A stretch of DNA of 40,628 bases from Acidimicrobiia bacterium (GCA_040902765.1 JBBDWO010000031.1:26698-67325); one strand, 5' to 3'; counted from the first letter of the stretch, positions 4,521 to 40,628 are shown. Notes: generated by a model from the sequence alone, not told the origin. Numbers and translations: made by a program.

Positions 4521-4569
4521 TGGTAGCGGGGGCGGGATTTGAACCCGCGACCTTCGGGTTATGAGGCCC
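4521..4569 (-). repeat. attachment-site copy 1: 3' half of tRNA-fMet
   Basis: Read on the minus strand this is the initiator tRNA from the anticodon loop through the T arm and acceptor to an encoded CCA. It matches the tRNA at the right end of the window until just past the anticodon, where an extra G breaks the anticodon stem. No 5' half is present, so it is an integration footprint and not a working tRNA. Confidence 0.85.
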
Positions 4570-4595
4570 GATTGAGAGGGTACGGCCGGCCAGGA

Positions 4596-4760
4596 GAAAT
4601 CCGCATGGAGCGGCTCGGCCACAGCACCATCCAGGTCACCCTTGGCACCTACGGGCACCTGTTTCCGAGTCTCGAAGCTGCCCTTACCGACGCTCTCGAC
4701 GAGGTCTACCGGGCCGCCGAGCCAGCTCGCCCGGCGGACATCCGGAAGATCGAAGGGTGA
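4596..4760 (+). pseudogene. C-terminal stump of a tyrosine integrase
   Basis: The frame reads ...RMERLGHSTIQVTLGTYGHLFP..., the box II region of phage-type tyrosine recombinases with the catalytic His (LGH) and nucleophile Tyr (TYGHLF), followed by a normal C-terminal tail and stop at 4758. The catalytic Arg and HxxR regions are absent, since the frame runs straight into the att copy at 4569. It is therefore the end of a lost integrase gene that sat next to its own attachment site. Its sequence differs from the intact integrase at 31964 (TMKQYAHVMP), so it came from a different element. Confidence 0.85.
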
Positions 4761-5687: not shown

Positions 5688-6625
5688 ACAGAAAGGAGCC
5701 GAAGGACCTGGCGGCCTCGATCCGCCAGCGGCTGCTCAACCTGGCCCGGGAAAGGGGCGAGGACTTCGAGCTGGTGCTTATCCACTACGCGGTGGAGCGG
5801 TTCCTCTACCGGCTGAGCCGCTCCCTTATCGCCGACCGTTTCGTCCTCAAGGGCGCCATGTTGTTCTCCACCTGGGTCGAGGTACCACGGCGGCCCACCC
5901 GTGATCTCGACCTCCTCGGTTTCGGCGATGACGCCGTCGTCTCCGTGGAGAGATCGGTGGCCCAGATCGTACGTACCGAGGTCGAGCCCGACGGCCTCGA
6001 GTTCGACGAAGGCTCCATTCGCGGAGAGGAGATCCGAGAGGGACAGGAGTACGCAGGGGTGCGGGTTCGGCTTCGGGCCAGTCTGGCCGGTGCCCGCATC
6101 CCCCTCCAGGTCGACGTGGCCTTCGGCGACGTGGTCAGCCCCGAACCTCGGACCGTCGAGTACCCAACCCTGCTCGCCCTAGCGGCTCCCCGGCTGCGCG
6201 CCTATCCGCCCGAGCCGGTGGTCGCCGAGAAGTTCCAGGCCCTCGTGGCCCTCGGGATGGCCAACACCCGAATGAAGGACTTCTACGACCTGTGGCTCCT
6301 CGCCGAGCGGATGCGCTTCGACGGTCCACCGCTCAGGCAAGCCATGGAGGCCACCTTCCGACAGCGTGACACACCGGTGCCGTTGGACCCACCGGTCGCC
6401 CTGACAGCCGAGTTCCATGACGACGCCTCCAAGCAGCAGCAATGGGCGGCGTTTCTCACCAGGAGCGACCTCCAGGCGCCCGCGCTGCCAGCGGTCATCG
6501 AGCGCGTGCGCACCTTCCTGCTCCCTCCCGCCGCGTCGATCGCCCGTGGCGAGTCGTTCGACGAGATCTGGCAGCCGGCAGGCGCGTGGGGATCTCGGCG
6601 AGAAATCTCGTCCAAACACGACTGA
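5684..6625 (+). CDS. abiEii: AbiEii/AbiGii-family nucleotidyltransferase toxin
   Basis: I chose GTG 5684, which overlaps the antitoxin stop; upstream codons in this frame lie inside abiEi. The 313-residue protein has the nucleotidyltransferase core: KGAMLFSTW (about 50-60), then RPTRDLDLLGFG with the paired acidic residues, and later VDVAFGD and the AEKFQALVALG..RMKDFYDLW helix typical of AbiEii. Family members transfer nucleotides to RNA targets such as tRNA ends and arrest growth. All core motifs are present, so the toxin looks intact. The C-terminal tail is less conserved. Confidence 0.9.
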   Translation: MNRKEPKDLAASIRQRLLNLARERGEDFELVLIHYAVERFLYRLSRSLIADRFVLKGAMLFSTWVEVPRRPTRDLDLLGFGDDAVVSVERSVAQIVRTEVEPDGLEFDEGSIRGEEIREGQEYAGVRVRLRASLAGARIPLQVDVAFGDVVSPEPRTVEYPTLLALAAPRLRAYPPEPVVAEKFQALVALGMANTRMKDFYDLWLLAERMRFDGPPLRQAMEATFRQRDTPVPLDPPVALTAEFHDDASKQQQWAAFLTRSDLQAPALPAVIERVRTFLLPPAASIARGESFDEIWQPAGAWGSRREISSKHD

Positions 6626-6774: not shown

Positions 6775-6823
6775 TGGTAGCGGGGGCGGGATTTGAACCC
6801 GCGACCTTCGGGTTATGAGCCCG
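6775..6823 (-). repeat. attachment-site copy 2: 3' half of tRNA-fMet
   Basis: Identical to the tRNA from an encoded CCA through the anticodon and part of the anticodon stem; homology ends at about 6823. It separates the AbiE mini-unit from the copper island. Confidence 0.87.
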
Positions 6824-17244: not shown

Positions 17245-17295
17245 TGGTAGCGGGGGCGGGATTTGAACCCGCGACCTTCGGGGTATCAGCCCGAC
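17245..17295 (-). repeat. attachment-site copy 3: degenerate 3' half of tRNA-fMet
   Basis: The CCA, acceptor and T-arm part is identical to the other copies, but the anticodon region has two changes (TATCAG in place of TATGAG). No 5' tRNA half follows. It marks an older integration boundary. Confidence 0.8.
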
Positions 17296-24145: not shown

Positions 24146-24186
24146 AGCGGGGGCGGGATTTGAACCCGCGACCTTCGGGTTATGAG
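24146..24186 (-). repeat. attachment-site copy 4: 3' half of tRNA-fMet (left end of the defence element)
   Basis: Matches the tRNA at 40572-40612 base for base from the acceptor end to the anticodon, then diverges. With the flanking arm site and hairpin it makes a direct repeat of about 120 bp at a constant offset of 16,426 bp. Confidence 0.9.
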
Positions 24187-24481: not shown

Positions 24482-24730
24482 TCAATGCCGGGTATCTCGG
24501 GGTGGAACGGGGTCGTTGCCGGGCACCACCGTGTCGCTGTCGCGGACCCGGCCGTCCCGGCCATGGATTCGGACTTCGCCACCCCCGGCGTTCCTGACTA
24601 TGTCCTTTGCCCGCAGCTCGGCCTCGGACTGTGTGTCGTGATGGGAGCTCACGCGCTTAGCGTTTGGTGCCACGACGTCCCAACCGCCTTCAGGGTTCGG
24701 GACAACGTGCCGACGGTTCTTGGGGGACAT
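24482..24730 (-). CDS. DUF2188-family protein
   Basis: The 82-residue product (NRRHVVPNPEGGWDVVAPNA ... SEAELRAKDIVRNAGGGEV RIHGRDGRVRDSDT region) matches DUF2188, a short beta-rich family of unknown role common in actinobacteria. It is first inside the left end of the element and lies downstream of the DUF262 gene on the same strand. Confidence 0.75.
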   Translation of the reverse strand: MSPKNRRHVVPNPEGGWDVVAPNAKRVSSHHDTQSEAELRAKDIVRNAGGGEVRIHGRDGRVRDSDTVVPGNDPVPPRDTRH

Positions 24731-24816: not shown

Positions 24817-26523
24817 TCAAACGGGCCAAGTCCTCACCGCGAGCTCGGCCAAGCGCTTCTGACGGGCCACTACGGACTCCGGGGTCCAGTCATCTTCACT
24901 GCCAGCATCCTGAGTGAGACGCATTGCCGATTCCACGAGGATCGGCTTCTTGACGCTGAACGGCTTGTTGCCGATCCGACCGTTGGGGCCCTTGCTCAAT
25001 AGCGCTAGGTTGCCGATGCGGTGCAGGTGTGACCGCCACTGCTCCTCGGTGAACTGGGGCCAATCACTCTTCGATGGATTCCGTGGGAGGATGTGCTCGA
25101 GGTTGACTTCTGTTTCGTTCTCATTTGGCACAAGCTCCGGCTCGTCTTCTCCTCGTTCGGTACGTTCGAGAGCAGCCAAAATGTAGCGGGCGACTGTGCC
25201 CCGCGTTACGCGTGCCTGCTCGAAGCGCTCCCGAAACTCTGAATCGCCGTACACAATGCTTGACAGCTCCGAGGCGATATCACCCGCTGTCTTGACGTCT
25301 CCCGCTCTGACCTTCATCGCGGCATCGCAATAGAGACGCTCTGCGGTACCCCCGCCGATTCCGCCCACAATCAGCCCTCGAACCGACCACGCAACTAAGC
25401 CCTTGAGGGCGCTCTTGAGTTCCTGCTTCGTCAGGTGCTGCATGGCGGCGAGTAGCAAGGGTCGGTGCTGTTCCAGGTTGAGTCTGCTGAGTACATCAAT
25501 GTTGGTTTTGACTTCCGGTGGAAAGTCTGACCAGTAGTCGTGGTCGCTATGGAGTATGGCCGCATAGAGCCGCGAGGCTTGCTTCAGTTCGAGGGCGAGG
25601 TCCACGGCGTGCGAGCTTGCGGTGACTCGATCCTTAATGCGTGCGTATAGCTCGCGCTCGCGGGTTGCGCCGTACTTTGATGACCAGAAGTGGCGAAGGA
25701 AGTCAGTGAAGAGCTGACTTCCGGCGGCTGAGATATCGAGGTATGCGAGGGCTGACGTCCACGCGCCTCGGACAACATCCAACTTCGCCTCGGACCGACG
25801 AAAGAGAAAGTTCTTGAGGAGGTCAGCGATGGTTAGGTCTGCTCCCCGATCGTTCAGTGTCTCAAAGATCAGGAAGGCATCAGCTTCGGTCGGCACGTCA
25901 ACGACAATGATCCGCGCACGGTCCTCGAGATACTTGACCCACCTCGTCAGCTTCGTCTCCCACGGCACCGATGATCCTCCGACAGCGGAGCCGACATATC
26001 CCAGTAGGAGGTTGTATGCCCGAGCGATGAGGTCGTGGCTCTCGATCTGACTTGGGGTACTGATGTCGCCCTCGATGATGAACTGGCCAAAGAAGGGGTC
26101 GTCGTCGGCGTTGAGAGTCAGCTGCGGCAGGAAGGACGCGGTGGCGAGATCAGTTGATGCAAGGAACTTCTGCTGGATTGAGTCCGCTCTCGTCGTGTCT
26201 CCTTGACGCTTGAATACATCTCGTATGGCTGCAAGCAAAATGGCGGTGGTGGCAATGCGCTGCTGACCGTCAATGATGGTCGCGCGCTGTGAGTCCGCGG
26301 AGCCCTCCCGTGACACCACAACAGCGCCAAGGAAGTACTCCGTCTCATCGCCTTGGTCGAACGCCGCGCTGAGATCGTCCCAAAACTCTTGGACTTGATC
26401 TCGTTCCTTTGGGTCATCGCTGCCCCAGGCGTAGGACCGCTGGTGGATCGGGACAGCGAGGCGCCGGCTCGAGAGGGCGTGGGCAATCCCTACAGAGCTG
26501 AATCCGAACTTGGTCTCGCTCAC
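24817..26523 (-). CDS. DUF262-DUF1524 nuclease (GmrSD-like, type IV restriction)
   Basis: I chose GTG 26523, where recognisable sequence begins; upstream codons are Arg/Cys-rich. The 568-residue protein has the DUF262 ParB-like domain with IPIHQRSYAW-type start, YFLGAVVV and IIDGQQR (85-89), the NTP-binding motif, then FETLNDRGADLTIADLLKN. Near residues 475-525 it has NLEHILPRNP and HRIGNLALLSKGPNGRIGNKPF, the HNH-like DUF1524 nuclease. This fusion is typical of GmrSD, SspE and BrxU-type enzymes, which cut modified DNA or act with a modification system. It follows the methyltransferase operon on the same strand, 122 nt after the preceding gene. Confidence 0.9.
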   Translation of the reverse strand: MSETKFGFSSVGIAHALSSRRLAVPIHQRSYAWGSDDPKERDQVQEFWDDLSAAFDQGDETEYFLGAVVVSREGSADSQRATIIDGQQRIATTAILLAAIRDVFKRQGDTTRADSIQQKFLASTDLATASFLPQLTLNADDDPFFGQFIIEGDISTPSQIESHDLIARAYNLLLGYVGSAVGGSSVPWETKLTRWVKYLEDRARIIVVDVPTEADAFLIFETLNDRGADLTIADLLKNFLFRRSEAKLDVVRGAWTSALAYLDISAAGSQLFTDFLRHFWSSKYGATRERELYARIKDRVTASSHAVDLALELKQASRLYAAILHSDHDYWSDFPPEVKTNIDVLSRLNLEQHRPLLLAAMQHLTKQELKSALKGLVAWSVRGLIVGGIGGGTAERLYCDAAMKVRAGDVKTAGDIASELSSIVYGDSEFRERFEQARVTRGTVARYILAALERTERGEDEPELVPNENETEVNLEHILPRNPSKSDWPQFTEEQWRSHLHRIGNLALLSKGPNGRIGNKPFSVKKPILVESAMRLTQDAGSEDDWTPESVVARQKRLAELAVRTWPV

Positions 26524-26645
26524 ACGCCACTCCGCTCTGGGTTCTAGAAGTGTGGCATAGCGTTGCGCTGTGCGCCAGATGTGCCACCTGTCATAAGCGA
26601 CGCTGCTCGCGGCACGCCGGTGATCTGACCGAGGTGAGCCTCGGG

Positions 26646-27632
26646 CTAGTTGAACAACTCCCCGAATGTATCCGGCCACACCAGGCGGATGCCGATCGCA
26701 GCACAGAGCTCGGCCCACTCGTCGGCAGAGGGGCGCCTCTCCAGAGCGATGACCGGGATTCTCCTCGAGACCGGCCATCGCAGGAAGGCGCAGTAGCTCA
26801 GCACCTGACCGATGGCGTATCGCATCTGGCGGGTTTCGTTTTGCTCGGTCAAGCTCTTGACCTCGACGATATGAGCAACGTCACCGTCTACCCAGGCGAG
26901 ATCGAACTGCGGGTCGGCAGCTGCGGGGGACCGCGGTTCTAATCCAGCCTCTAGCACTCGCTCCTTGAGAGCATTCTGCGTCCGAGCGTGAGCATCGGTG
27001 GCGCGATCGAAGAGATCTGGATCAACCTCGAATACTCGCCGCTTGGAGGCTCCGGACGTCTCAGCGGCCTGTCGGTAGGACGCGCCCATCGCTGGGGGGA
27101 TACTGTCGGGTGTTTCCATCGGCGATGACCCGTGTACCCGGGCGATTAGACCATCCACGAGGTTCCCGCGAGGCACAACGACGACTCTCTCTGTCTCTCT
27201 CGCCGACCGGAGCTGTCGATCCTGCGTTGCCAGACCCTCTGCCAATGCGGATTCGATCGTCTCCCCTCTCACTTGCACGTTCGCGGACCAGCTGAAGTCG
27301 TTGTGGAGTGGGGCATCCCACAGGACGTAGACGCCGTCTTCTGGCGAGAAGCCCGCGAGCAGAACAAAGGCATCGTCCGAGAAGTCGAAGGTTCCGCGCT
27401 CTCCTCGACCTTGGCCTGGCGCGATCAACTGGATCTTGTGCTCCCCCGTGGGACGCCCACCCGGCGGGGAGGTGAGGTTGTAGATGTAGGCGCGAACCCT
27501 CTCAGGTAGGGGAGGGGACAGGGAGACCTCAAGAGGCTTGTCTTCGACCGCGCTTGCCTCAAGCACTAGGTCACCTAGATCTTCGAGGAACCCAATGTGC
27601 AGCGAAGCGGTGTCGAGTCGTAGTTCGGGCAC
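26646..27632 (-). CDS. PD-(D/E)XK restriction endonuclease-like protein
   Basis: I chose GTG 27632 (AAAGGA upstream); TTG 27638 is an alternative. The 328-residue protein has an N-terminal beta-rich module (RVRAYIYNLTSPPGG, KIQLIAPGQGRGERGTFDFS, YVLWDAPLHNDFSWSANVQV), which I think is a target-recognition domain found with restriction enzymes but cannot name. A C-terminal nuclease domain has Asp in QFDLAWVDG, E-x-K in AHIVEVKS (about 257-259) and a Gln in IGQVLSY. It starts 10 nt after the second methyltransferase, so it is the likely nuclease of that system. Confidence 0.78.
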   Translation of the reverse strand: MPELRLDTASLHIGFLEDLGDLVLEASAVEDKPLEVSLSPPLPERVRAYIYNLTSPPGGRPTGEHKIQLIAPGQGRGERGTFDFSDDAFVLLAGFSPEDGVYVLWDAPLHNDFSWSANVQVRGETIESALAEGLATQDRQLRSARETERVVVVPRGNLVDGLIARVHGSSPMETPDSIPPAMGASYRQAAETSGASKRRVFEVDPDLFDRATDAHARTQNALKERVLEAGLEPRSPAAADPQFDLAWVDGDVAHIVEVKSLTEQNETRQMRYAIGQVLSYCAFLRWPVSRRIPVIALERRPSADEWAELCAAIGIRLVWPDTFGELFN

Positions 27633-27642
27633 ATTCAATCCT

Positions 27643-29403
27643 TTAGGCGCCGGTGTAGAACCTACCCTCCCTCATGTAACGGGCGTCGCAGATGCGCTCG
27701 AACGCGCGATAGGACAGGCCCTCGGGGACGACATCCCGTTCAATGATGCCCGACACGGCGAGGGAGTAGAGATACTCAAGGCTGCGATGCTCATGGTCGG
27801 TGGGTCTGTCCGCTGCGTCAAGGCCCGCAAGGTGCTTATCGACGATCTGGGCGGCGATGTCTCCAGCCCCATTCAATCGCGCCCGTGATCCCCTCCCGAA
27901 GGTGATGATCAAGTCGTAGAAGGGGACGCGCTCCGCCCCCGACCTCCCCTTGTAGCCCTTCATCGACCTCTGCACCTTGTCCAGGAGCGCAACGTGCTTC
28001 TGGACAAAGCCGGCGCTTTCGGCGGCGTCGAGCAAGGCCCCCCAGACCGCATCGTCGGAGTTGTGGAAGACCACGCTGGCAAGACCCCCAGGCTTGAGTA
28101 CGCGCCGCATCTCTGTAAAGGAATCAATGAGCAGATCCCGGTAATCGGACACTGTCTTTCCGCCCTCTGCGGGACGCTTCGACCGATTGACCACGATCTC
28201 CTGGCTGCTGTCAGTCGTCGCGCCCAGCCATGCTTCCCACACCAAATTGCAGTCGGCGTAGAACAGGTTTGATCCGAAAGGTGGGTCCGTGAAGATGTAG
28301 TCGATGCTGTCGTCCTCTAGCCAGGCGAGATCGGTGGCCGTCCCGACCTGGACGTCGACGGGGTTGGAGCTGACATCGCCGAGCTGCTCGTAGTATCGGG
28401 CCACCTGCCGCACCTGGTTCCGGAAGACCTCGAAGACGTTGGGCTCGGCCACGAGCTGGGGGATGTACAGGGTGCCGGTGAGCGGGCGTTGGCCGCCGTG
28501 AGCGTTGTAGCGGCGCATGCGACTCGAGTGCCACGCCGTATTGGTGAATGCGAACCTAAACGCGTCGCGAGCTTCCTCGCTCTCGATTTTGGAGATCTGA
28601 GCCCACAGTCTCGACAGCGCCACTCTGGCCCTGCCCAGGTAAAAGTCGGTGACGGTCTCGATACCCTTCAGATGAAGGGCGGACCTCCGGTACATCTCTC
28701 GGTCAGACTCCACACGATCGGAGGGCAGCCAGGCACGGGGCCTTCGCCGTCCCTGGCTCTCGATCCTCGCCGATGCCTCGGGAGAGACCGACCCCGTTTG
28801 GAGCCCTCGGCAGTCACCCCCGCAGTCGACGGTCATCTGAACCGGCACCGAACGCGTAGCGACGGCGCCCGCTCGGGTGATCCATTCGCCGCAGTGCTTA
28901 CAGAGCACTTCACGCGGTACCTGTCCCGAGCCCGACGCATGATCGAAGAGGAGTTCCTCGCCGCGGCAACTCGGGCATGTGAGCGTCTCGCTCCAGATCG
29001 TGTGCCGCGCGAGACCGGCCGAGCCGCATCTTGGGCAAGCAGCGTCATACAGCTGTCGCTCTGCTCGTCGCATCCAGCGTCTATCCAACGCGGCGGCAGC
29101 TGCAGTAAGGGCCTCGGGGTCGGCCGGCCGCGTGTGACCCATGGCCACATGTGTGGCGCCAGGTGACAGGTCTGACAGGGATGCTCGACGGCCCGCCTGC
29201 AACGCCGCCACTCCCGTCATGCCCGACCCGCAGAAGGGGTCCAGCACGAGGTCGCCGGGCTCACTGCATGCCTCGATGAAGGGTGCGATGGCTTCGGGCG
29301 GGACCTTGGTCGGATAGCTGTGCGCCCGGTAGGCGAAGCTGGTTTTGGGCGCCGACACCGAGGCTGGCAGCGCCGACGTGCGAGACGACGATTGGCGGTT
29401 CAT
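27643..29403 (-). CDS. zinc-ribbon DNA methyltransferase 2
   Basis: ATG 29403 overlaps the upstream gene's stop (ATGA). The 586-residue protein has motif I LDPFCGSGMTG (about 54-64), Cys pairs between about 123 and 199 (CPRC, CPSC, CKHC and CGGDC) that look like zinc ribbons, and motif IV TDPPFGSNLFY (about 372). RAHSYPTKVPPEAI precedes motif I, as in COG1743-like methylases. The DPPF tetrad is compatible with adenine-N6 or cytosine-N4 methylation; which one cannot be told. It is a diverged paralogue of methyltransferase 1. Confidence 0.88.
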   Translation of the reverse strand: MNRQSSSRTSALPASVSAPKTSFAYRAHSYPTKVPPEAIAPFIEACSEPGDLVLDPFCGSGMTGVAALQAGRRASLSDLSPGATHVAMGHTRPADPEALTAAAAALDRRWMRRAERQLYDAACPRCGSAGLARHTIWSETLTCPSCRGEELLFDHASGSGQVPREVLCKHCGEWITRAGAVATRSVPVQMTVDCGGDCRGLQTGSVSPEASARIESQGRRRPRAWLPSDRVESDREMYRRSALHLKGIETVTDFYLGRARVALSRLWAQISKIESEEARDAFRFAFTNTAWHSSRMRRYNAHGGQRPLTGTLYIPQLVAEPNVFEVFRNQVRQVARYYEQLGDVSSNPVDVQVGTATDLAWLEDDSIDYIFTDPPFGSNLFYADCNLVWEAWLGATTDSSQEIVVNRSKRPAEGGKTVSDYRDLLIDSFTEMRRVLKPGGLASVVFHNSDDAVWGALLDAAESAGFVQKHVALLDKVQRSMKGYKGRSGAERVPFYDLIITFGRGSRARLNGAGDIAAQIVDKHLAGLDAADRPTDHEHRSLEYLYSLAVSGIIERDVVPEGLSYRAFERICDARYMREGRFYTGA

Positions 29404-31226
29404 TTCTTTGGCTCGCTCGGGCTCGGAGGACGGAGCTCCCACTGGCCACCGGTCCATGAGAAGTGTGCCTGACAGAGATCCTCGACGGCCTTGTAGGTCC
29501 AGCCCTCAAGTGCCAGCCCGGCTTCGAGCAGGATCCGCATAACGAGTGAGTGAAGGTATGGCGTCGTTCGCTTCGAGGGCGTCGCTGTCGCCAGGTGATC
29601 CCTGAGCGCGGCGACGATGACCATCTCCTTGGCTGCCACAGATCCGGTCCTGGTGGGGGTGCCGCCGTGGGATCGAAGGTGCAAGACGAGATCGAAGGCG
29701 GGTACGCGCTCGCCGTCCAGCAGGGTCTTTACCCCCTTGAACGAGGGCTGGGACTTGTCGAAGGCGACGGCGGAGGCGACCTCAAACCCGGCAGCCTCGA
29801 CGGCCCGTTGCAGCGCGCTCCACACTTCATCGTTGGAGTTGTGGAACATGACGCTCGCCCAGGCACCATGTCTGAGGATACGGGCCATCTCCTCGAACGC
29901 CGAGGCCATCAGCTTCTCGTAGTCGGCAACGTCCTTACCCCCGTGCTCGGGATCGAGTGAGCGATTGACAACCGTTTCGAGCTTGGGATCGGTGCTTTCC
30001 TGGAGCCACGCCTCCCACAGGAACGAGGAGTCCCCGTAAAATATGTTCGAGCCGAAGGGTGGGTCGGTGAACACATAGTCGACTGACCCATCCGGGATGT
30101 GCCCCAGCTGCTGTGCTGGTGCCTGGTGCACCTCAGCGGACCCCGGCAGTGTCGTTGTGGCTCGATAGAGGTCCCGGATGGTCTTGAGCTTCCGTCGCAG
30201 GAGGGAGAACACATTGAACTCGTACGACAGAGACGCGACATACATCGTCGACGAGAGCACATTGGTGGGCCGTTTCGGGTTCCACTGGTAGCGGCGCGAA
30301 GCGCGGTTGACGATGGATGTGAAGGCAAAACTGAGCGCAGACTGGGCGTCCGGGAGATGCGACGAGGCGATACGCTCCCACACCGCTGCCAGTGCCCACA
30401 GGTTGCGCGGTGTGTAGAAGTCGGCAGCGGTCGCAAGCCCCTGTGCCGCGTGTTGGCCGCGCCACATCTCTCGCCAACTGTCGAAGGGATCCGTTGGATA
30501 CCAGTACGGAACGACGTCCTGGGTGAAGCCGACGGCGTGTGCAAACTCGTCGTCGGTCAGGATCCGTTGCTCCCGTGAGCGGCAGGTCGTGCAGCTCACT
30601 GACACTTGGACCGGTGTGGTGCGGGTCCAACCCAGGTCCTTCTTCCTCCACTCAGCGCTACACGCACTGCATGTGATCGTCCGCCCGACCGCGGTGCGGT
30701 CCCCATTCAAGCCCGACTCCCAGAAGACGAGCTCGGCGTCGCAAGCTGCGCACAGATGCACATCGGACCACACGGTGTACTCGATGCGTGCCCGACCTTC
30801 ACAAGTATTGCAATGGGTTCCGTAGAGCATCTGCTCTAGGTCGGAGAGATCATGCAGTAGTCGACGACCTGCTCCCTCGAACTGGTCGGGATCCACATGG
30901 GCTACGTAGTTTCGTGTGATGTGGACTGCTGCCGGTGAGAGGTCAGACAGCACGGCGCGGCGGCCGGTCAACAGACAAGCCACGCCGGTCATCCCGGACC
31001 CGCAGAAGGGATCGACCACGATCGCGCCCGGATCGGTGTAGTGCTCCACGGCCTCGGCGATGCCTTCAGGTGGGACCTTCGTGTGGTAGCTGTGCGCTCG
31101 GTAGAAGATAGAACCCTTGCCGCCGACGATCTCCTTGCGGTGGGGCGGTCGCACCGGGACGGGCCCGCGACCGGCAGAGAGCGGCTCGAGGTCAGGCGTG
31201 AGCTCGTTGAGCCGGAGCTGATCCAT
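29400..31226 (-). CDS. zinc-ribbon DNA methyltransferase 1
   Basis: ATG 31226 gives 608 residues. Same order as its neighbour: RAHSYHTKVPPEGI, motif I VDPFCGSGMTG (about 71-81), four Cys clusters between about 139 and 215 (CNTC, CAAC, CSAC, CTTC) and motif IV TDPPFGSNIFYGDS (about 387), then NRSLDPEHGGKDVADYEKLM. It is the first gene of the leftward operon MTase1-MTase2-nuclease, with 4-nt and near-zero spacing. Two methyltransferases of one type next to one nuclease suggest an asymmetric recognition site, each enzyme modifying one strand. Confidence 0.88.
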   Translation of the reverse strand: MDQLRLNELTPDLEPLSAGRGPVPVRPPHRKEIVGGKGSIFYRAHSYHTKVPPEGIAEAVEHYTDPGAIVVDPFCGSGMTGVACLLTGRRAVLSDLSPAAVHITRNYVAHVDPDQFEGAGRRLLHDLSDLEQMLYGTHCNTCEGRARIEYTVWSDVHLCAACDAELVFWESGLNGDRTAVGRTITCSACSAEWRKKDLGWTRTTPVQVSVSCTTCRSREQRILTDDEFAHAVGFTQDVVPYWYPTDPFDSWREMWRGQHAAQGLATAADFYTPRNLWALAAVWERIASSHLPDAQSALSFAFTSIVNRASRRYQWNPKRPTNVLSSTMYVASLSYEFNVFSLLRRKLKTIRDLYRATTTLPGSAEVHQAPAQQLGHIPDGSVDYVFTDPPFGSNIFYGDSSFLWEAWLQESTDPKLETVVNRSLDPEHGGKDVADYEKLMASAFEEMARILRHGAWASVMFHNSNDEVWSALQRAVEAAGFEVASAVAFDKSQPSFKGVKTLLDGERVPAFDLVLHLRSHGGTPTRTGSVAAKEMVIVAALRDHLATATPSKRTTPYLHSLVMRILLEAGLALEGWTYKAVEDLCQAHFSWTGGQWELRPPSPSEPKK

Positions 31227-31389: not shown

Positions 31390-31617
31390 CTACCTGCCTG
31401 CCAATGGGCTGTGGCGGCTACGCCGCTTTCGTGCCCACCGTTCGACCGATGAGCGAAGCCACAACCGGGGCCGACCCTTTCCCAGGTCGATGACCGGCCT
31501 AGGCATGTCGGGGTAGCGCTTTTGATAGGCGCTCACTGTGTTCCGATGGGCCAAAGCCAGCAGCTCCGCGACGGCTTGGGCGTCGATGAGATCCTCGGTG
31601 TCCACTCTCGGAGCCAT
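31390..31617 (-). CDS. small helix-turn-helix DNA-binding protein
   Basis: I chose ATG 31617 (MAPRVDTEDL); the open frame extends upstream through the operator. The 75-residue product has a winged-helix-like pattern (LIDAQAVAELLALAHRNTVSAY, then VIDLGKGRPRLWLRSSVERW) as in AlpA/excisionase-type regulators. It is divergent from the excisionase-integrase operon and shares its operator region, so it may repress excision and integration genes and itself. Confidence 0.75.
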   Translation of the reverse strand: MAPRVDTEDLIDAQAVAELLALAHRNTVSAYQKRYPDMPRPVIDLGKGRPRLWLRSSVERWARKRRSRHSPLAGR

Positions 31618-31625
31618 CGGTGACA

Positions 31626-31678
31626 GGTTACACCTGTTGACTTCGTCATAGTCACTCCATAGGGTTACAGGTGTAACC
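31626..31678. promoter_or_regulatory. shared operator/promoter of the integration module
   Basis: The half-site GGTTACACCTG (31626-31636) recurs as CAGGTGTAACC (31668-31678), which is part of the near-palindrome GGTTACAGGTGTAACC (31663-31678). A rightward promoter TTGACT (31637-31642), 17-bp spacer, TAGGGT (31660-31665) sits between them, so a protein on both sites would cover both promoter boxes. Both neighbouring DNA-binding genes are candidates. Confidence 0.75.
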
Positions 31679-31745: not shown

Positions 31746-31964
31746 ATGACTCAGCCTATCTACGTCTCGACACTCGATGACCTGGAGCGTCGACTCACGC
31801 TCTCGATCGCGGAGACCGCAGCGCTTCTCGGTCTTGGTCGCACGTCCGCCTACGAGGCAGCGCGGCGCGGCCAGATCCCGACCCGGCGCCTCGGGCGGCG
31901 CGTCATGGTGCCCGTGCCGGCCCTCCTCGAATGGCTTGGCGCTACCGATCGGGAGGTCGCGTGA
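31746..31964 (+). CDS. excisionase-family helix-turn-helix protein
   Basis: ATG 31746 follows AAAGGAGGT. The 72-residue product has LTLSIAETAALLGLGRTSAY EAARRGQIPTRRLGRRVMVP region, the standard excisionase/MerR-like winged helix, ending in a hydrophobic ALLEWL helix. Its stop overlaps the integrase start (TGATG). It probably directs excision by bending DNA near the arm sites. Confidence 0.87.
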   Translation: MTQPIYVSTLDDLERRLTLSIAETAALLGLGRTSAYEAARRGQIPTRRLGRRVMVPVPALLEWLGATDREVA

Positions 31965-33133
31965 TGCAGGGCCACATTCGCAAGCGGGTCCACACCACGA
32001 AGGACGGCCGCCAGACCACGAACTGGTATGTGGTCATCGAGATGCAGCGGGCTGGCGATGGGAAGCGTCGGCAGAAGTGGCACGGTGCCTTCGCCACTCG
32101 GCGCGAAGCCGAGGCTGCGAGGGCGAAGATCATTCACGATATGAACCTCGGCATCTACGTCGAGCCGAGTTCGCTCACTCTCTCGGGGTGGGTGCGAGAC
32201 CACTGGCTGCCGACGATGCGGTCCCGGGTGAAGCCGAGCACGTTCGACTCATATCGCCGGAACCTCGAGCTCCACGTGCTGCCACGGCTGGGAGGTCTCC
32301 GGCTAAGCAGGCTTACGCCCGTGATGCTGAACGGCATATACGCCGACTTACTGACCGACGGTCATCTCAAGGCTGATCGCGGGTTGAGCGCCAAGACCGC
32401 GCGCTACATCCACACGATCCTCCACAAGGCCCTCGCGGACGCGGTCGACGCAGGCTTGGTGGCCGTGAACGTTGCGGCACGTGCCAAGCCGCCGCGGCCC
32501 CGGAGTGCACCCGCGAGTGAAATCAAGGCGTGGAAGCCTGCTGAGCTACGCGCGTTCCTCGAGATGGTCGAAGGCCATCGCCTGGAGGCGGCGTGGCATC
32601 TCATCGCCATGACGGGGATGCGGCGCGGCGAGGTCCTTGGGCTCCGCTGGAAGGACGTCGACCTCGGTGCTGCGCGGATCTCGGTGCGTCAGGCTTTGGT
32701 GGCGGTCGCCTACAAGGTCATTGTCTCAACGCCGAAGACGCATCAGGCAAGGGTGATCGATCTCGACTCTGGAACCGTCGCTCGGCTCCGGGCTCACTGG
32801 ACCCGTCAGCAGGCGGAGCTTGAAGAGTGGGGTACGGACTACCAGGACGCAGACCTCGTGTTCTGCAAGGAGAACGGGACGCCGATTCATCCGCACACGT
32901 TCTCTCAGGCGTTCGAGCGCCTGGTAGCCAGATCCGATCTACCGCAGATTCGACTCCACGACCTCCGGCATACCCACGCGACGATCGCGTTGAATGCCGG
33001 GGTGCCGATCAAGGTCATCAGCGAGCGTCTCGGTCACGAGACACCGGCCTTCACCATGAAACAGTACGCCCATGTGATGCCGGGTATGCAGGCGGAAGCG
33101 GCCGAGGCAATCGCGGCCCTGGTGGGCCCCTGA
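31964..33133 (+). CDS. int: tyrosine integrase
   Basis: ATG 31964 gives 389 residues. The N-terminal part holds an arm-binding-like domain (GKRRQKWHGAFATRREAEAA), the middle a core-binding SAM-like domain (LSGWVRDHWLPTMRSRVKPS), and the C-terminus the catalytic residues: Arg in TGMRRGEVLGLRW, HxxR in LHDLRHTHAT, His in ERLGHETP and Tyr in MKQYAHV. All are present, so the enzyme looks active. It should recombine the tRNA-fMet att copies; the presence of an arm-binding domain fits the paired TTTGACAC boxes at the element ends. Confidence 0.93.
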   Translation: MQGHIRKRVHTTKDGRQTTNWYVVIEMQRAGDGKRRQKWHGAFATRREAEAARAKIIHDMNLGIYVEPSSLTLSGWVRDHWLPTMRSRVKPSTFDSYRRNLELHVLPRLGGLRLSRLTPVMLNGIYADLLTDGHLKADRGLSAKTARYIHTILHKALADAVDAGLVAVNVAARAKPPRPRSAPASEIKAWKPAELRAFLEMVEGHRLEAAWHLIAMTGMRRGEVLGLRWKDVDLGAARISVRQALVAVAYKVIVSTPKTHQARVIDLDSGTVARLRAHWTRQQAELEEWGTDYQDADLVFCKENGTPIHPHTFSQAFERLVARSDLPQIRLHDLRHTHATIALNAGVPIKVISERLGHETPAFTMKQYAHVMPGMQAEAAEAIAALVGP

Positions 33134-33184: not shown

Positions 33185-35983
33185 TTAGCGGGATCGCGGT
33201 TCTCCGAGGGGGTGCAGGTGATCGCGGGGTCCGAGGTTCTCGCTGGCCCATTCGAAGACGTCGTCCTCTTGGCTGAAAAGGATCACCTGATGTCCGGTAC
33301 TCACCTCATGGAGGACGTCGAGGATTGCCGAGGTGCGCTGAGGGTCGGACTGCACGGTGCTGTCGTCCAGGAGCAGGGGACAGCTCGCGCCGTTGGCGAT
33401 GAGGATCTCCGCCATGGCGATGCGCAGCAGCAGGTAGATCTGCTCGGCAGTGCCGTGCGACAGCAAATCGGCATTCTGCCAACGACCGTCCGCGTCCTGC
33501 ACTTGCACCTGGAGCGTTTCGGGGTTCACGATGACGTTCTCATAGCGGCCCGCGGTGACCCGGGCCAGGCGCTCGCTCACCTTGGCGGCGAGGACAGGAG
33601 CGATGTTGCGATGCACACGTTCCTGGGCGTCGGTGAGGAACGCTCGGGTGGTATCGAGCACCGCCTTAAGTGATTCGACACGTTCCAGGTCCCCTAGAGC
33701 GGCAGCGAGCTGCTCGTCCGCTTCGGCGACGCTCGGCGCCTGCTCGGCGCGGAGTTCCAGTTCACGGCGTGCCTCGGCGGCTTCGATGTCCAGCCGGTCG
33801 GCTTGTTCGCGAAAGTTGCGTACAGCGGTCTCGGGATCGTCCCCCAGTTCCATGCCCTCGATGAGGTCTGGGTCGAGATCTCGGCTCAGCTCCTCGAACC
33901 GTTTACGAGCAGCACTCTCCAGGGCTTCAAGGTCGTTGAGGCTGCGGCCATCGAGGAGCACCTGGAGGCGAGTCCACTCCCGGTTGGTGACCTCCATCTC
34001 GTCACCCTTGCGGTCTCGCTCCCGCTGCCAAGACCCGAGCCCGTCTACCAACTCGGCCTCAGAGAGAGCGGGCGCCGTCGCCTCGTTGGCGAGGCCTACG
34101 GCCGTCGCGGCATTACGAAGGGCATCGCGCGCGCGCTTGAGCCGTTCCGTCTCCTCGGCCAGCTGGCCTTCGGCGCGCCGGCGTGCGGCCACGGCCTGCT
34201 CGAGGGCTGGCCGTTGACTGGACTCGGTCGCCTGGTGCCTCCGCCTTAGGCATGCCGCTTCGTAGCGCGCGACTGCCGCATCCAGATCCCTAGTGTCGGC
34301 CCCCGCCTCGACCTCGCCGCCGCGCTCCGCGAGAGCGCGCCGCAGCGCTTCGGCCGATGCGGCGACTGTTTCGCCGAGGTCTCGTTCTCGGGTCTCCCAC
34401 TCGGCTCGTCGCCGTGCAGAGTCCTCGGTCCGGCGGATCTGGTCGGCGAGGGGACGGAGGATGGCCGGGTTTGGTTCAAGACCCGCATCCTCGGCGCGCC
34501 TGACAGCGTCCCTTCGGCGTTGCTGCGCCGCCACGGCGAGCTGCTCGGCCATCATGAACTTGGCCTCCGCGGCGGCCAGCGCCCGGTCGTCGGCAGACGG
34601 GGTTCCAGGCCAGTGCCACATGGCGACGGCTGCGAGGCCGAGGAGGACGCCGACGCCGATGCCGACGCCTCCGGGGACGGTGCTACCGGTGGCGAGCAGC
34701 GCCGTGCCGGTGACGATGGAGACGACGGCGGCGACAATAGCGACGATGCCGGAGATGGGCGGTCTCCTTGCACGTGGGACGGTCGGCTGCTTTCGCAACC
34801 CCTCCGCCTCCGCGCGTAGCGCGGGATCCACCTCCGGAATCGGTGTCTCCAGCTCTCGGGCGAGATCGATGAGCTCGGCCTCGCTGATTGTCGTCGGCTC
34901 GCCCGCCGGGTCGAGGGGTCTCTGTTGGTCGTGGGCTTCGTAGCGGCGCTGCACATCGAGGAGTTCGCGGTGCGCGATTCGCACCGTGTCCGCCGGTTCG
35001 AGGTCGCCGGTCGGCGGGTCCGGCAACGACCGCAGTCGCGCCTCGAGGTCGTCGGCGGACGCGCCGCTCAATGGCGCTGGGTCGGGACGCTGTTCCCAGT
35101 CGTGGAGCGCGGCGGCCACCTGCCCGGCGAGCCGCTCGTTGTCCCGCAGGTCGGGGGGCGGCGACGGATGACGCTCGGTGAGGGTTCGGGCTTCGCTCAG
35201 CCGGTCCGCGAGCTGCTCGGCAGCGTCTCGTACCCGGCGGCCTTCGGCGGCACGCGCTGCGCGCCGGGTCTGGGCGGCCCTGGCCCGCAGTTCGACCAAC
35301 CGCTCCTCCCGCTCCAGCCAGTCTTGGTGCTGGACGACCACACTCTTATGCGTCGCCTCGGCGCGCTCCACACTCCTCCTCGCCCTCAGCAGGGGCTTGG
35401 TGGTGGACCGCTCGGTGCCCACGTGATCCCGCGAATACGTGTCGAGGGCGCTGAGGGCAGCTGCCGCGGTCTCGTCCGTTCCCGCCGTTGCCGCCGCTCG
35501 CTGCAGGTGCTCCTGAAGGTTTCCGGCGTCTTCCGTGAGCGCCAGGATGTGCGCCTGGCGGATGGAGGCGACGGCCAGGAAGGCTCGGCGATCGAGTCCC
35601 AGCCAACGCGAACCGTCGGGGGCACCTTCGTGGATGATCTCCGAGGTGAGATCGGTTCCGAGGTTGGCGTCCCGGGCGCTGCTGTCGACCCCCCCGGACA
35701 GATCGTGAGTCAGTGCGATCGTCCGTCCGTCGGGTAGGTCTATCACGCAGGAGGCTCGCCACTGGTCGCGACCCCACGGCTTGTGCCGCTGGATGAAATC
35801 CTGGTCCTCTTTGCGTCGGCCCGCCCCTCGCCGCATGCCACACAGCGCAGCGTAGATAGCGGCGTGCCAGCTGGACTTGCCGGACTCGTTGAGTCCGGTG
35901 ATCACCGTCATGCCCTCAGCTAGGTCGAGGCACTCGTCGTCGAAGGGCCCAAACGGATGGGCGCGCACCTCGCGGATCCGCAT
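33185..35983 (-). CDS. YhaN/SbcC/Rad50-like ATPase with central membrane spans
   Basis: ATG 35983 gives 932 residues. Walker A GLNESGKSS lies at about 30-38. Two long coiled-coil arms flank a centre with two hydrophobic segments (about 410-456) where Rad50 has its zinc hook; YhaN-type proteins have the same arrangement. Near the C-terminus are an ABC-like signature (LSHGTAEQIYLLLRIAMAEI) and Walker B (CPLLLDDSTVQSD). It is encoded next to its likely nuclease partner (stop and start 2 nt apart) and should form a membrane-associated DNA-end or DNA-structure sensing complex. It converges on the integrase gene. Confidence 0.88.
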   Translation of the reverse strand: MRIREVRAHPFGPFDDECLDLAEGMTVITGLNESGKSSWHAAIYAALCGMRRGAGRRKEDQDFIQRHKPWGRDQWRASCVIDLPDGRTIALTHDLSGGVDSSARDANLGTDLTSEIIHEGAPDGSRWLGLDRRAFLAVASIRQAHILALTEDAGNLQEHLQRAAATAGTDETAAAALSALDTYSRDHVGTERSTTKPLLRARRSVERAEATHKSVVVQHQDWLEREERLVELRARAAQTRRAARAAEGRRVRDAAEQLADRLSEARTLTERHPSPPPDLRDNERLAGQVAAALHDWEQRPDPAPLSGASADDLEARLRSLPDPPTGDLEPADTVRIAHRELLDVQRRYEAHDQQRPLDPAGEPTTISEAELIDLARELETPIPEVDPALRAEAEGLRKQPTVPRARRPPISGIVAIVAAVVSIVTGTALLATGSTVPGGVGIGVGVLLGLAAVAMWHWPGTPSADDRALAAAEAKFMMAEQLAVAAQQRRRDAVRRAEDAGLEPNPAILRPLADQIRRTEDSARRRAEWETRERDLGETVAASAEALRRALAERGGEVEAGADTRDLDAAVARYEAACLRRRHQATESSQRPALEQAVAARRRAEGQLAEETERLKRARDALRNAATAVGLANEATAPALSEAELVDGLGSWQRERDRKGDEMEVTNREWTRLQVLLDGRSLNDLEALESAARKRFEELSRDLDPDLIEGMELGDDPETAVRNFREQADRLDIEAAEARRELELRAEQAPSVAEADEQLAAALGDLERVESLKAVLDTTRAFLTDAQERVHRNIAPVLAAKVSERLARVTAGRYENVIVNPETLQVQVQDADGRWQNADLLSHGTAEQIYLLLRIAMAEILIANGASCPLLLDDSTVQSDPQRTSAILDVLHEVSTGHQVILFSQEDDVFEWASENLGPRDHLHPLGEPRSR

Positions 35984-35984
35984 A

Positions 35985-37088
35985 TCAGTCGACCCCTAGG
36001 TCGTGGCGCCCCTCCAGGGCGCGCAGTCCCGTGATGAGGATCCGACGCTTCATTTCGGAATCGAGAGACGAGGCGCGCACATCAGCCACGAACTGGCCGC
36101 GGACCGTCGACTCCCCAGCGATGGCGTCAAGGTCGTAGGCGACGGTGATCTCGCCCAGCCTCGGGACGGTCGCGTCTAGGTGCTCCCCCACGCCGTCGAG
36201 GCAGGCCAAGGTGACGTCGACATCAGGCGCCACCTCGCCGTGGAGGGTGACTCGCACGATGCCGGATCGGGAGGCGAGTTCCGCCTGCGCCCGGTTGCGG
36301 ATTTCCTGGGTGCTGGAGCAGCCGGTCACGTCCACGGTCACGTCGGCGACCACGGACTGTGCCACGCGGTGGCGGGTGCGGGTTACCGTTCCGTCGTCAT
36401 GCACGTCGATGATCACCAGTCCTCGCTCGCCCTCTTCTCCGAAGGTGAGCGGATCCGGGTTGCCCGGGTAGGTGTGCCACTCGCCGTCGCGCGGTGTGTG
36501 GAAGTGCCCGACGAGCGCGTGATGCAGCCCGGCTTGGGGGATCTGCTCGGCGTCGAACGGGGCATGCGGTTGCTTTCCGTCCTCCTCAAAGGGGAGCCCG
36601 GACCGTAGCGAGCCGTGGAAAAGCGCCATATGGATTCCATTGGCGTCCCGGTCAACGGTGAATCCGTCGAGGAAGTTCGGGGTACCCGCGGGCTGTCGAT
36701 GGGCGGCTCCCCAGATGGTGAGTCCAGCCGTGAGCTCATACGCTTGCAGTCGCGCCTCCGTATAGATGTGAACGTTCGGTGTCCACTCGGTCCGCGCATA
36801 GACGCTCTTCGGACCGAACCAGTCGTGGTTTCCGGGGGCCACGAGCACGGGCACGTGAGAGAGGCGGGCGAAGGCACTTTGGAGGACCGCTGCTGTATCG
36901 GGGGCAACTCGGTCGTGCTCGTACAGATCCCCGGCGCAGCACAGAGCATCGACGCCTTCCTCTTGGGCCACATCGATTATCGAGTCGAGCGTGTCCCGCA
37001 GCGCCTGACGGCGCCGCCGTGCTACGTCCGAAGGCGCCCACTGAAAGGGCACGTCAAGGTGTAGATCCGCGAATAGGGCGAGTCTCAC
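35985..37088 (-). CDS. Mre11/SbcD/YhaO-like metallophosphoesterase nuclease
   Basis: GTG 37088 gives 367 residues. All five calcineurin-like motifs are visible: DLHLD, GDLYEHD, GNHDW, ALFHGS and GHFHTP, so two-metal nuclease activity is expected. The C-terminal 120 residues are a capping region that may bind the ATPase. This and the YhaN-like protein form a Mre11-Rad50-type pair. The GTG overlaps the stop of a small upstream frame (37085-37234). Confidence 0.9.
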   Translation of the reverse strand: MRLALFADLHLDVPFQWAPSDVARRRRQALRDTLDSIIDVAQEEGVDALCCAGDLYEHDRVAPDTAAVLQSAFARLSHVPVLVAPGNHDWFGPKSVYARTEWTPNVHIYTEARLQAYELTAGLTIWGAAHRQPAGTPNFLDGFTVDRDANGIHMALFHGSLRSGLPFEEDGKQPHAPFDAEQIPQAGLHHALVGHFHTPRDGEWHTYPGNPDPLTFGEEGERGLVIIDVHDDGTVTRTRHRVAQSVVADVTVDVTGCSSTQEIRNRAQAELASRSGIVRVTLHGEVAPDVDVTLACLDGVGEHLDATVPRLGEITVAYDLDAIAGESTVRGQFVADVRASSLDSEMKRRILITGLRALEGRHDLGVD

Positions 37089-37314: not shown

Positions 37315-39546
37315 TCACTGGGGCACTGTTGGCGGCGTGTCTTCGCTGTTCTCGCCGGTGGAGGCTCCCTGCCAGGGGTTGGTCTCCGGCTGGGATGAGG
37401 GTGCATGGACAGTTGGGTCCGTCAGGGCTTCGTCGATCTGCCGGATAAACCGATCCCAACCACTCTCACCCCCCCCGAAGAGGTCTCCGAATCGCCTCCA
37501 CCTTGGGGTTCCGAACTCTGCGATCGTGGGCTTCGCTCCCTTCGCTTCTCGGCATTGGATGAGGCGGATGGCGCCGCGAGCCGCGTCCGCGGCCCTATAG
37601 ACGGATGCTCTCGCTTCCTGCTCAGCCCCGGTCGGGACCTCAACGGTGAAGCGCCCGAGAGGCCGGCCTCCCAACGCTCTGAACACTTTCTGGGCGAGGG
37701 CGGCGACGTTTTCAGGCATGAGCCTGTCGTACTTGGGAACGACAGCGCGCTTCTCCCCGATGGCTGCGTAAACGCTTCCGAGGTCTCCTCCGAACCAACT
37801 GTTTGCTGTTCGGTTTGCGATCCTCGAGAACTGCCGAAGGGTGGGTGGCTTTCCGATATCGGCGATTCGGCGGTGATAGGCGCCATGTACTTCCTCAAGA
37901 TCGCGACGCCATCTCTGAAGATAGTTCTGGAGGTGCGAGTCCATCCACGAGCGCCGGTGTTGGGTCACGACGTCTCTCAGAAACTCAAAGCCTTCCCGGC
38001 GCTGGCCAAAGCGCATCGTGATCGACAACGACGCTGATGATCCCATCTCGCGCTCGATGTCCTCGGGTGGTCCGAGCTTCTTCTCCGCCCGTGCGAGGTC
38101 AGTGAATAGGTTTACATCGATCGGGTTTCCCACCTCGTCGAGACGCTTGATGAGCTTCGAGTAGTAGCTCGACAGTCCTGCGACGTCGGTTCGCGAGTAG
38201 GGACCCTCGGCGACATACCAGATGGTCCGCTCAACGCCCTCCCAAAACTCCCACGCCGGCCCGACTGCTTTGGCGACCTGATTGAACGGGAGTACCTCCG
38301 TGTGTAAGCGCTCCGGCCAACGCTCGAACACCGCCATCCCCCATAGGTCGTTTACTCGTTCGATTGTCTCGCCACGCAGGACCGACTCCATGAGCGCCTC
38401 CTGGGGGTGTCCTGGGTCGTACTCGTCCTCGGTTAGATGGAATGCACGAAACTCAGACGTTTCCAAGCTCGGAAGCGGTCGCATCCCCGACTGCTGGTTT
38501 GCCTGGGCTTGGTCGAACTGTGACCAGATGTCGGTGAGTACTGCAATGCGAGAGGCGATTGGTGAGTCGGCCGGATCTTCGAGGGCGGTGCTCGCTCCCC
38601 TCCCCGCTTCCTCCCGGCCCTCCGCCCGCACGCGAGAGGAGGCTGTGTCAACGTCGATCCTGGCCACGGGCAGCTCGTACACCACTTCCTCGTCAGGGTG
38701 GGGCTGTTCGCCGAGGTAGTCGAGAAGGGCGAGCCAATCTCCGCCAAAAAGCGCAACCAGATGAGGCCCGTATTGCTTCGTGATGACGCGTCGGCGGAGC
38801 GCACTCCGGTCGGCGTTGGCGCGGTCGTAGTATCGGTCGGCGAGCTCGGAAAGGTACAAGGCGCGATAGAGGCTCCCCGAACGGTCTGCCCAACCGTCAT
38901 ACAGCGCATGCCTTAGCGCGACTCGCGCCTCGACCACTTGATTCGCGTTCCGTCGACTCCAGCCATGACCGGGGAGAAAGGGTTGGAGCGCATCGCCCAC
39001 GTCGATGCCCAAGGCCTCTAGGAGATCCCGGTAGGTATCGAATCGTGCCTTGACCTCGTCGGTAGCGAGCTTTCCCGACTGGCGACCCCGAATTTCGAAT
39101 GGGTCGAAGAGGTCCCCCGCGAGGCGATTGGTGAGGGACCACGTGAGGATGCACTCCCACGTATCGAGGGGGAGTGTCCCTGCGATGTTGCGGGCATTGC
39201 TGAGCGCGAATCGGGGACCGTTGTCGAGGAGCTGGGGCAGGCTGATCCACCCTGGCTCAAGTCGGCCCCGTTCTGGTAGGAACCAGCCACCGCGCCCCCG
39301 GACTCCGTCAGGGCTATACGCATCTGACAGCCATGATCTTTGAGTCCTGCTCATCCACGAGTACTCAACCTTCACCAGTCTCGCGCCTTCAAGTGTCCAC
39401 GTGAGCGGGTGGCTGCCATCGAGAATCCGCTGACCGACCTCCTTGATGACGTCGTCAAGGACCGAGAACCGATCGTCTCCCAAGTCCACTTCTAAGCCAA
39501 GGATCCTCGCCGGTGTTGCTCCTACGAAGTCGCGGTGCCCAATCAT
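37315..39546 (-). CDS. large protein of unknown family in the putative defence operon
   Basis: ATG 39546 gives 743 residues. It is soluble and mixed alpha/beta, without signal or spans. I see no Walker, nuclease or methylase motif. Notable stretches are ALFGGDWLALLDYLGEQPHP (about 270-290), a charged linker with Ser/Ala/Glu near 305-330, and a Pro/Thr/Ser-rich C-terminal tail (SSQPETNPWQGASTGENSED). The helical segment around MDSHLQNYLQRWRRDLEEVH could mediate assembly. It lies between the 204-residue protein and the Mre11-like gene on the same strand and may be the effector or sensor. Confidence 0.78.
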   Translation of the reverse strand: MIGHRDFVGATPARILGLEVDLGDDRFSVLDDVIKEVGQRILDGSHPLTWTLEGARLVKVEYSWMSRTQRSWLSDAYSPDGVRGRGGWFLPERGRLEPGWISLPQLLDNGPRFALSNARNIAGTLPLDTWECILTWSLTNRLAGDLFDPFEIRGRQSGKLATDEVKARFDTYRDLLEALGIDVGDALQPFLPGHGWSRRNANQVVEARVALRHALYDGWADRSGSLYRALYLSELADRYYDRANADRSALRRRVITKQYGPHLVALFGGDWLALLDYLGEQPHPDEEVVYELPVARIDVDTASSRVRAEGREEAGRGASTALEDPADSPIASRIAVLTDIWSQFDQAQANQQSGMRPLPSLETSEFRAFHLTEDEYDPGHPQEALMESVLRGETIERVNDLWGMAVFERWPERLHTEVLPFNQVAKAVGPAWEFWEGVERTIWYVAEGPYSRTDVAGLSSYYSKLIKRLDEVGNPIDVNLFTDLARAEKKLGPPEDIEREMGSSASLSITMRFGQRREGFEFLRDVVTQHRRSWMDSHLQNYLQRWRRDLEEVHGAYHRRIADIGKPPTLRQFSRIANRTANSWFGGDLGSVYAAIGEKRAVVPKYDRLMPENVAALAQKVFRALGGRPLGRFTVEVPTGAEQEARASVYRAADAARGAIRLIQCREAKGAKPTIAEFGTPRWRRFGDLFGGGESGWDRFIRQIDEALTDPTVHAPSSQPETNPWQGASTGENSEDTPPTVPQ

Positions 39547-39667: not shown

Positions 39668-40282
39668 TCACGGCGCGACCTCAGCTAGCAACACCGCCAA
39701 TCGTTCCCTCAAGTTGGTGAGGTCGGGGCTCTGCCCGAAAGGCACAGCGCGTTCCGCTATTTCGAGCGCCTCGGCGAGGTAGCCCTCATCCAGGTAGAGC
39801 GAGAAAAGGCGCTGGAATGCTGGGATTGACACGAACGCGTTCCGGGCTGCCCCTGGCATCCGTACGGCCTCGGGGCGTGCTTCCACCAATCGCACATCGA
39901 GGAGACATAGCTTCTCGATCAGGTCACTAATCGAAGGGTGTTGACGGCGGATTCGCCACAGGGCGTCGTAGGCGCCGAGCAGCGCGAAGTGGTAGTCCGA
40001 GGCTTCGCCCGGAAGTAGGAGCGTCTCGGAGATTGTCCGCCGAACGTGCTCAAGATCTTCGGGCAGAGGGTCGTACGCTCGTTGGGACACGGGAGACTGC
40101 CCCTCCTCCACTCCAGGTTGGCTTATAGAGTCCCAGCGCCAGACCTCTGTGCCATCAGGCATGGTCCACTCGGACGGCCGTGGCCTGAAGTCTGCCCCCC
40201 GAAGTCGAGACCGATCGACATCGGCAAGGGGTTCGTACGCACCGATGATGTCGGCCAGTGTCTCGTACCACTCGAGCGTCAT
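39668..40282 (-). CDS. 204-residue protein of unknown family with TPR-like C-terminus
   Basis: ATG 40282 follows GGAAGGGA. The N-terminal half has MTLEWYETLADIIGAYEPLA and VWRWDSIS; the C-terminal half is helical, ending in a TPR-like pair (RLFSLYLDEGYLAEALEIAE RAVPFG region). It is the first gene of the leftward unit that continues with the 743-residue protein. The 121-nt gap to the next gene holds no gene I can see. Confidence 0.72.
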   Translation of the reverse strand: MTLEWYETLADIIGAYEPLADVDRSRLRGADFRPRPSEWTMPDGTEVWRWDSISQPGVEEGQSPVSQRAYDPLPEDLEHVRRTISETLLLPGEASDYHFALLGAYDALWRIRRQHPSISDLIEKLCLLDVRLVEARPEAVRMPGAARNAFVSIPAFQRLFSLYLDEGYLAEALEIAERAVPFGQSPDLTNLRERLAVLLAEVAP

Positions 40283-40563: not shown

Positions 40564-40570
40564 CTCTTAG

Positions 40571-40628
<58 letters not shown>

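Follow-up and report, generated by a model that had tools for sequence, protein, structure and literature searches.

A twin-methyltransferase locus with an MTaX1-PD-(D/E)XK nuclease on a putative tRNA-Met-integrated element of an Acidimicrobiia bacterium

The window analyzed here, a 40,628-nt stretch of DNA from an Acidimicrobiia bacterium, contains three adjoining genes, M1, M2, and R, that form a coherent module. We read this module, with a probability of roughly 0.6, as a Type II-like restriction-modification (R-M) system in which M1 and M2 would be strand- or half-specific methyltransferases (MTases) and R would cut unmarked DNA, with the neighboring DUF262-DUF1524 gene, G, standing apart from it. 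The trio is a member of a little-described family in which a single adaptor domain, MTaX1, is joined to varied cutting enzymes. In the mechanism we propose, M1-M2-R would travel as cargo of a tRNA-Met-integrated element, and the two MTases, through different zinc-ribbon target-recognition regions, would each methylate a single strand, or half, of an asymmetric target. R would bind DNA with the aid of MTaX1 and cut through its PD-(D/E)XK domain where the mark is missing. G would be a separate DUF262-DUF1524 defense nuclease on the same element rather than a subunit of the trio, and its trigger could be either a foreign modification or, as in DndI, a missing self mark.

Layout of the locus and the surrounding element

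All four genes lie on the minus strand in the order M1, M2, R, and G (Table 1), with family matches far beyond chance; this order, as well as the 4-nt overlap (ATGA) between M1 and M2, confirms what a first-pass annotation of the sequence had given. The 10-nt gap that it placed between M2 and R holds when R begins at GTG 27632, which is most likely the start, as favored by an AGGA 6 nt upstream and by the homologue alignment. It was also right that a DUF262-DUF1524 gene comes next, but the start needed correction: the mechanical open reading frame (ORF) of G opens at 26778, within R, whereas homologues begin at GTG 26523, so that this is probably the true start and the R-G gap would be 122 nt. 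Consensus scans of this gap, which prove little in an actinobacterium, returned neither a terminator nor a sigma-70 promoter, and its RNA folded no better than shuffles, giving no sign of a special structure. Since R and G are on the same strand, 122 nt apart, and lack a recognizable terminator between them, a common transcript is possible.

Table 1. Positions of the features discussed, in the window unless another contig is named
Feature	Position	Strand	Remark
M1, predicted alpha-order N6A/N4C-type DNA methyltransferase	29400..31226	-	608 aa; start ATG 31226; PglXI-related (BREX-3)
M1 zinc-ribbon segment, putative target-recognition region	30582..30812	-	C139/C142, C159/C162, C186/C189, C212/C215
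M2, predicted paralogous DNA methyltransferase	27643..29403	-	start ATG 29403
M2 zinc-ribbon segment, putative target-recognition region	28810..29037	-	sequence comparison
R, MTaX1 + PD-(D/E)XK nuclease	26646..27632	-	alternative start TTG 27638
MTaX1 domain of R	27153..27500	-	PF20296, 4.1e-22
PD-(D/E)XK-like domain of R	26649..27026	-	invariant D246, E259-x-K261, Q278
G, DUF262-DUF1524 (GmrSD/DndI/HEC-06-like) nuclease	24817..26523	-	probable start GTG 26523
Small helix-turn-helix (HTH) protein	31390..31617	-	upstream of M1; possible regulator
Excisionase-like HTH_17 protein	31746..31964	+	profile match
Tyrosine recombinase/integrase	31964..33133	+	profile match
Distal copy of tRNA-Met 3' end, att-like	24146..24186	-	41 nt identical to copy 40572-40612
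tRNA-Met(CAT)	40570..40628	-	runs off contig end
Second MTaX1 arm, contig L035	5721-11078		second MTaX1 protein has N-terminal domain of no assigned family
Second MTaX1 arm, contig L039	11408-16888		as for L035
Second MTaX1 arm, contig L040	11409-17059		as for L035

The trio and G appear to reside on one tRNA-Met-integrated element, as judged from an integrase gene and from the tRNA 3' end being repeated, in direct orientation, at each border. The tRNA-Met(CAT) gene becomes complete after joining contig C14 through a 55-nt overlap. Five copies of its 3' end, all in one orientation, occur in the window (4523-4565, 6777-6823, 17247-17282, 24146-24186, and 40572-40612), with the copies at 17282, 6819, and 4565 differing in extent, and we read them as a putative tandem array of integrated elements. 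The stretch enclosed by the final two repeats holds the trio, G, a DUF2188 gene, the excisionase-like gene, the integrase, and an SbcC/SbcD-like pair. No empty integration site was found, the flanking genes, among them two of the element's border genes, being too rare in relatives.

Several other features of this region deserve mention. Two related palindromes, ACAGGTTACACCTGT and GGTTACAGGTGTAACC, at 31623-31637 and 31663-31678, sit before the small HTH gene and the divergent excisionase/integrase genes, and are likely operators. The DUF2188 gene, which follows G closely downstream and shares its strand (24482-24730), encodes a small protein. The genes for the SbcC-like AAA ATPase and the SbcD-like metallophosphoesterase (33185-37088) fall within the same putative element, and the ATPase was matched in 1 of 25 close relatives. 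Proteins of 743 aa (37315-39546) and 204 aa (39668-40282), encoded between this pair and the tRNA, were matched by nothing in Pfam (at E 0.001), PADLOC, or PHROGs. Elsewhere in the tandem array, one element holds an AbiEii gene (5621-6625), and a short integrase-like match lies near 4584-4676.

The methyltransferase pair and nuclease R

Both M1 and M2 match the Pfam family N6_N4_Mtase and share one motif order (motif X-like HSY.TKVPPE, motif I DPFCGSGMTG, and motif IV TDPPFGSN). Between motifs I and IV, each has four pairs of Cys of zinc-ribbon type. These SAM-binding and catalytic motifs, of the kind carried by the DNA MTase of a Type II R-M system, lead us to infer that both are SAM-dependent N6-adenine or N4-cytosine MTases; which of the two bases is methylated is not told by the motifs. 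They are apparently both intact, with conserved motifs, and paralogous, in keeping with the earlier description of a restriction module with two zinc-ribbon MTases. Cys 159, 162, and 186 of M1 are invariant in all M1 sequences, all M2 sequences, and the outgroups, while C189 is replaced by Gly, with an adjacent His, in eight M1 orthologues; the window and the Arthrobacter group retain the outer Cys pairs.

The next relatives of the pair include PglXI of BREX type 3. Specifically, the PADLOC model for this MTase family is matched at 1.7e-110 by M1 and 1e-89 by M2, with a fused MTase_II model scoring higher than PglXI, and one 1344-aa PADLOC MTase model is matched in successive stretches by M1 (180-742) and M2 (780-1266). 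BREX membership was considered and rejected: PglZ has no match in the genome, and the PglZ and BrxC/PglY core is missing from the neighborhood. A structure model of M1 added little, its best PDB matches being generic Rossmann methyltransferases, including CcrM and Dam.

In a tree of 31 sequences, the 12 M2 sequences, which span Actinomycetota and Sphingomonas, form one clade (support 99/98), and the 12 M1 sequences, of the same span, one group with weaker support (76/37). The duplication is therefore most likely older than the divergence of the Acidimicrobiia, Arthrobacter-group, and Sphingomonas loci, each of which has kept both copies. The pair is kept in 12/12 loci compared, and in Sphingomonas hankookensis M1 and M2 are fused in a single 1262-aa ORF. 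M1 orthologues share 21-49% identity over the zinc-ribbon segment (residues 111-240), compared with 64-83% over the motif I and motif IV segments, and between M1 and M2 of the window the ribbons are 18-24% identical. Zinc-ribbon segments are thus among the most divergent parts, as would be expected of target-recognition domains; the C-terminal 80 residues of M1 and M2 are likewise divergent, so the ribbon is not the sole candidate recognition region. This resemblance to a target-recognition region favors two different half-specificities and, hence, an asymmetric target, with which the suggestion of such a target in the first-pass annotation fits insofar as the presumed recognition segments differ.

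R combines the Pfam domain MTaX1 (PF20296) with a C-terminal PD-(D/E)XK-like domain. Its active-site residues (D246, E259-x-K261, and Q278, counted from TTG 27638) are invariant in nine R sequences, and this conservation suggests a working endonuclease; further, residues 207-328 are predicted to adopt a PD-(D/E)XK topology. The structure model of R is of low confidence (mean pLDDT 59.5) and returned nothing below E 0.001 in Foldseek, and with this low-confidence model VIA-align placed residues 205-330 near EndoMS, XisH-family proteins, Can2/Card1, McrC, and PspGI, at Z 7-9. The MTaX1 part aligned with Hjc-type resolvases at Z up to 8.5, scores that may reflect only a common arrangement, and we do not claim a nuclease fold for it. 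As in a Type II R-M system, the endonuclease gene is linked to an MTase gene, in 9/9 Acidimicrobiia loci. No relative of R or M1 came up in pattern scans of viral contigs.

Recurrence of the trio, the MTaX1 arms, and the place of G

A scan of genome contigs with R found eight other Acidimicrobiia contigs, in each of which M1, M2, and R keep this order, at identities to the window of 43-45% for R, about 52% for M1, and about 55% for M2; these contigs represent approximately three lineages and, therefore, are not eight independent tests (one is the same contig as G263, whose class points to an acidimicrobiial actinobacterium as host of the window). The scan also returned Sphingomonas and one fragmentary gammaproteobacterial locus, and wherever this R was found, M1 and M2 accompanied it. 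G was beside the trio in none of the eight other Acidimicrobiia contigs, and was absent from the Arthrobacter-group and Sphingomonas twin-MTase loci.

Across these loci, the twin MTases are accompanied by MTaX1 proteins with exchangeable cutters, namely, PD-(D/E)XK, PbeA/PbeC-like, and AAA ATPase. On Arthrobacter-group plasmids, M1-M2 is followed by an MTaX1-only protein, an McrB-like AAA ATPase, and a 668-aa protein. In the Sphingomonas locus, MTaX1 is joined to an HTH in one protein, and PbeA-like and PbeC-like genes accompany it. In three Acidimicrobiia contigs (L035, L039, and L040), one MTase pair has two effector arms alongside it: the trio is joined by a converging second MTaX1 protein and then two large genes, which in L035 match the PbeA and PbeC models. 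PbeA and PbeC genes are present in L035 and L042 and absent beside the trio of the window. A survey predicted that MTaX1 joins in the discrimination of modified DNA and saw it in R-M systems (PMC10853773), to which our results add that MTaX1 is linked to paired PglXI-related MTases, that it occurs fused to a PD-(D/E)XK domain, and that some loci have two arms. The idea that MTaX1 strictly tracks the specificity of the MTases was set aside: the Arthrobacter-group M1 is 57% identical to that of the window and its MTaX1 only 18%, so MTaX1 does not simply follow the MTases. MTaX1 was also found fused to HNH nucleases, and a Haloglomus plasmid (L046 8986-15125) has, one after another, genes for MTaX1-HNH, a DUF1156 methyltransferase, and a DUF262 protein, an MTaX1/methylase/DUF262 neighborhood of a kind unlike that of the window.

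G matches GmrSD_N (3e-28) and GmrSD_C (2.2e-25) in Pfam and carries the QR, DGQQR, FxxxN, and HNH-type motifs of a GmrSD-family nuclease; its best PADLOC matches are Orf5 and HEC-06, and its closest solved relative by sequence is DndI (E 1.2e-13). The first-pass annotation had suggested G as a functional partner of the trio, a view that is not supported, as the gene is conserved independently, which the annotation itself had named as refuting evidence. No MTase gene lies directly beside its relatives in G167, G248, G231, Methylobacterium, and Paraburkholderia, and the G188, G723, and Paracoccus relatives lie near an unrelated MTase or Type I system. Because these relatives are solitary or adjoin other restriction systems, G has the look of a gene that stands on its own and turns up repeatedly at restriction loci. 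DndI cleaves DNA on which the host phosphorothioate label is missing (PMC11662687), whereas BrxU, found with BREX (PMC8565348), and TgvAB, within a Type I R-M cluster of V. cholerae VPI-2 (PMC11411939), act on modified DNA; the preference of G is, therefore, not readable from its family, and the premise that the two nucleases of the window have opposite preferences is unsafe. Phosphorothioate sensing by G is itself unlikely, given that His26 stands where DndI has its sensing Tyr25 and that DndC had no match in the genome.

These observations bear on several alternatives to our preferred reading. That the trio and G are one module, in which R destroys plain and G modified phage DNA, would be in keeping with their common strand, short gap, and shared integrated element, as well as with the intact family motifs of G. 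Cases of GmrSD-family genes lying within or next to R-M or BREX systems have already been published, with the two proposed as complementary against plain and modified phages (PMC11411939, PMC8565348), so the idea of such a pairing, also advanced in the first-pass annotation, is plausible in kind and not new. However, the trio and G are not supported as a conserved unit, since G is in no other twin-MTase locus found and its relatives are located elsewhere, and DndI cuts DNA that lacks the host mark; we consider a combined module unlikely. It is quite unlikely, in our estimation, that M1 and M2 have unrelated specificities, such that R acts only on DNA missing one mark and the second MTase works as an orphan or in some other capacity: the low identity of their ribbons and the existence of solo M1 relatives without M2 are what one would expect from this, but the two are kept as an overlapping pair with a single R and are fused both in Sphingomonas and in the PADLOC model.

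The predicted part of MTaX1 in discriminating modified DNA (PMC10853773) also raises a modification-dependent R, with MTaX1 reading methylated DNA and either the host mark serving as a cue or foreign methylated DNA being cut. We find this very doubtful, as R is locked to M1 and M2 wherever this R was found, and cutting the M1/M2 product would be self-destructive unless gated. Least probable of all, we think, is that M1/M2 methylation is a shared self mark read by a set of interchangeable nuclease arms, which would be MTaX1-PD-(D/E)XK, MTaX1 together with PbeA/PbeC-like proteins, and, here, a DndI-like DUF262 nuclease sensing base methylation in place of phosphorothioate.

Implications and comparison with known systems

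Under the preferred reading, a Type II-like trio with G apart, the locus defines a testable family of PglXI relatives that occur outside BREX as a duplicated pair, with MTaX1 joined to different nucleases. The exchangeable MTaX1 arms are the part most worth following, because what MTaX1 reads would tell whether one methylation label serves several restriction effectors; shared-mark reading, if true, would amount to one label with plug-in effectors. Further, adjoining nuclease genes within a defense island need not be a functional pair.

Relative to known systems, the architecture of G (DUF262-DUF1524 with DGQQR and HNH-type motifs) is that of DndI, HEC-06, and GmrSD, although G deviates from DndI in having His26 at the Tyr25 position and a genome without dndC. 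Like TgvAB on VPI-2 and BrxU with BREX, a GmrSD-family gene here adjoins a methylation-based restriction system on a mobile island; unlike those cases, the R-M type is different, G is a single protein, and the association is not conserved in relatives. M1 and M2 have the motif order of PglXI (BrxXI) of BREX type 3 and the common zinc ribbon, but here two copies of the MTase accompany a PD-(D/E)XK nuclease in a genome without PglZ. MTaX1 loci with PbeA/PbeC-like genes (PMC10853773) resemble the window in combining an MTaX1 protein with DNA methylases, yet the MTaX1 of the window is fused to PD-(D/E)XK and adjoins no Pbe-like genes. Finally, Type II R-M systems in which two MTases serve an asymmetric site, such as the fused M1-M2 of MhoVII (PMC12898733) and SfaNI-like systems (PMC9799307), likewise set two MTases, separate or fused, beside one endonuclease; the trio described here differs from them in that its zinc-ribbon MTases belong to the PglXI branch and MTaX1 lies within the endonuclease.
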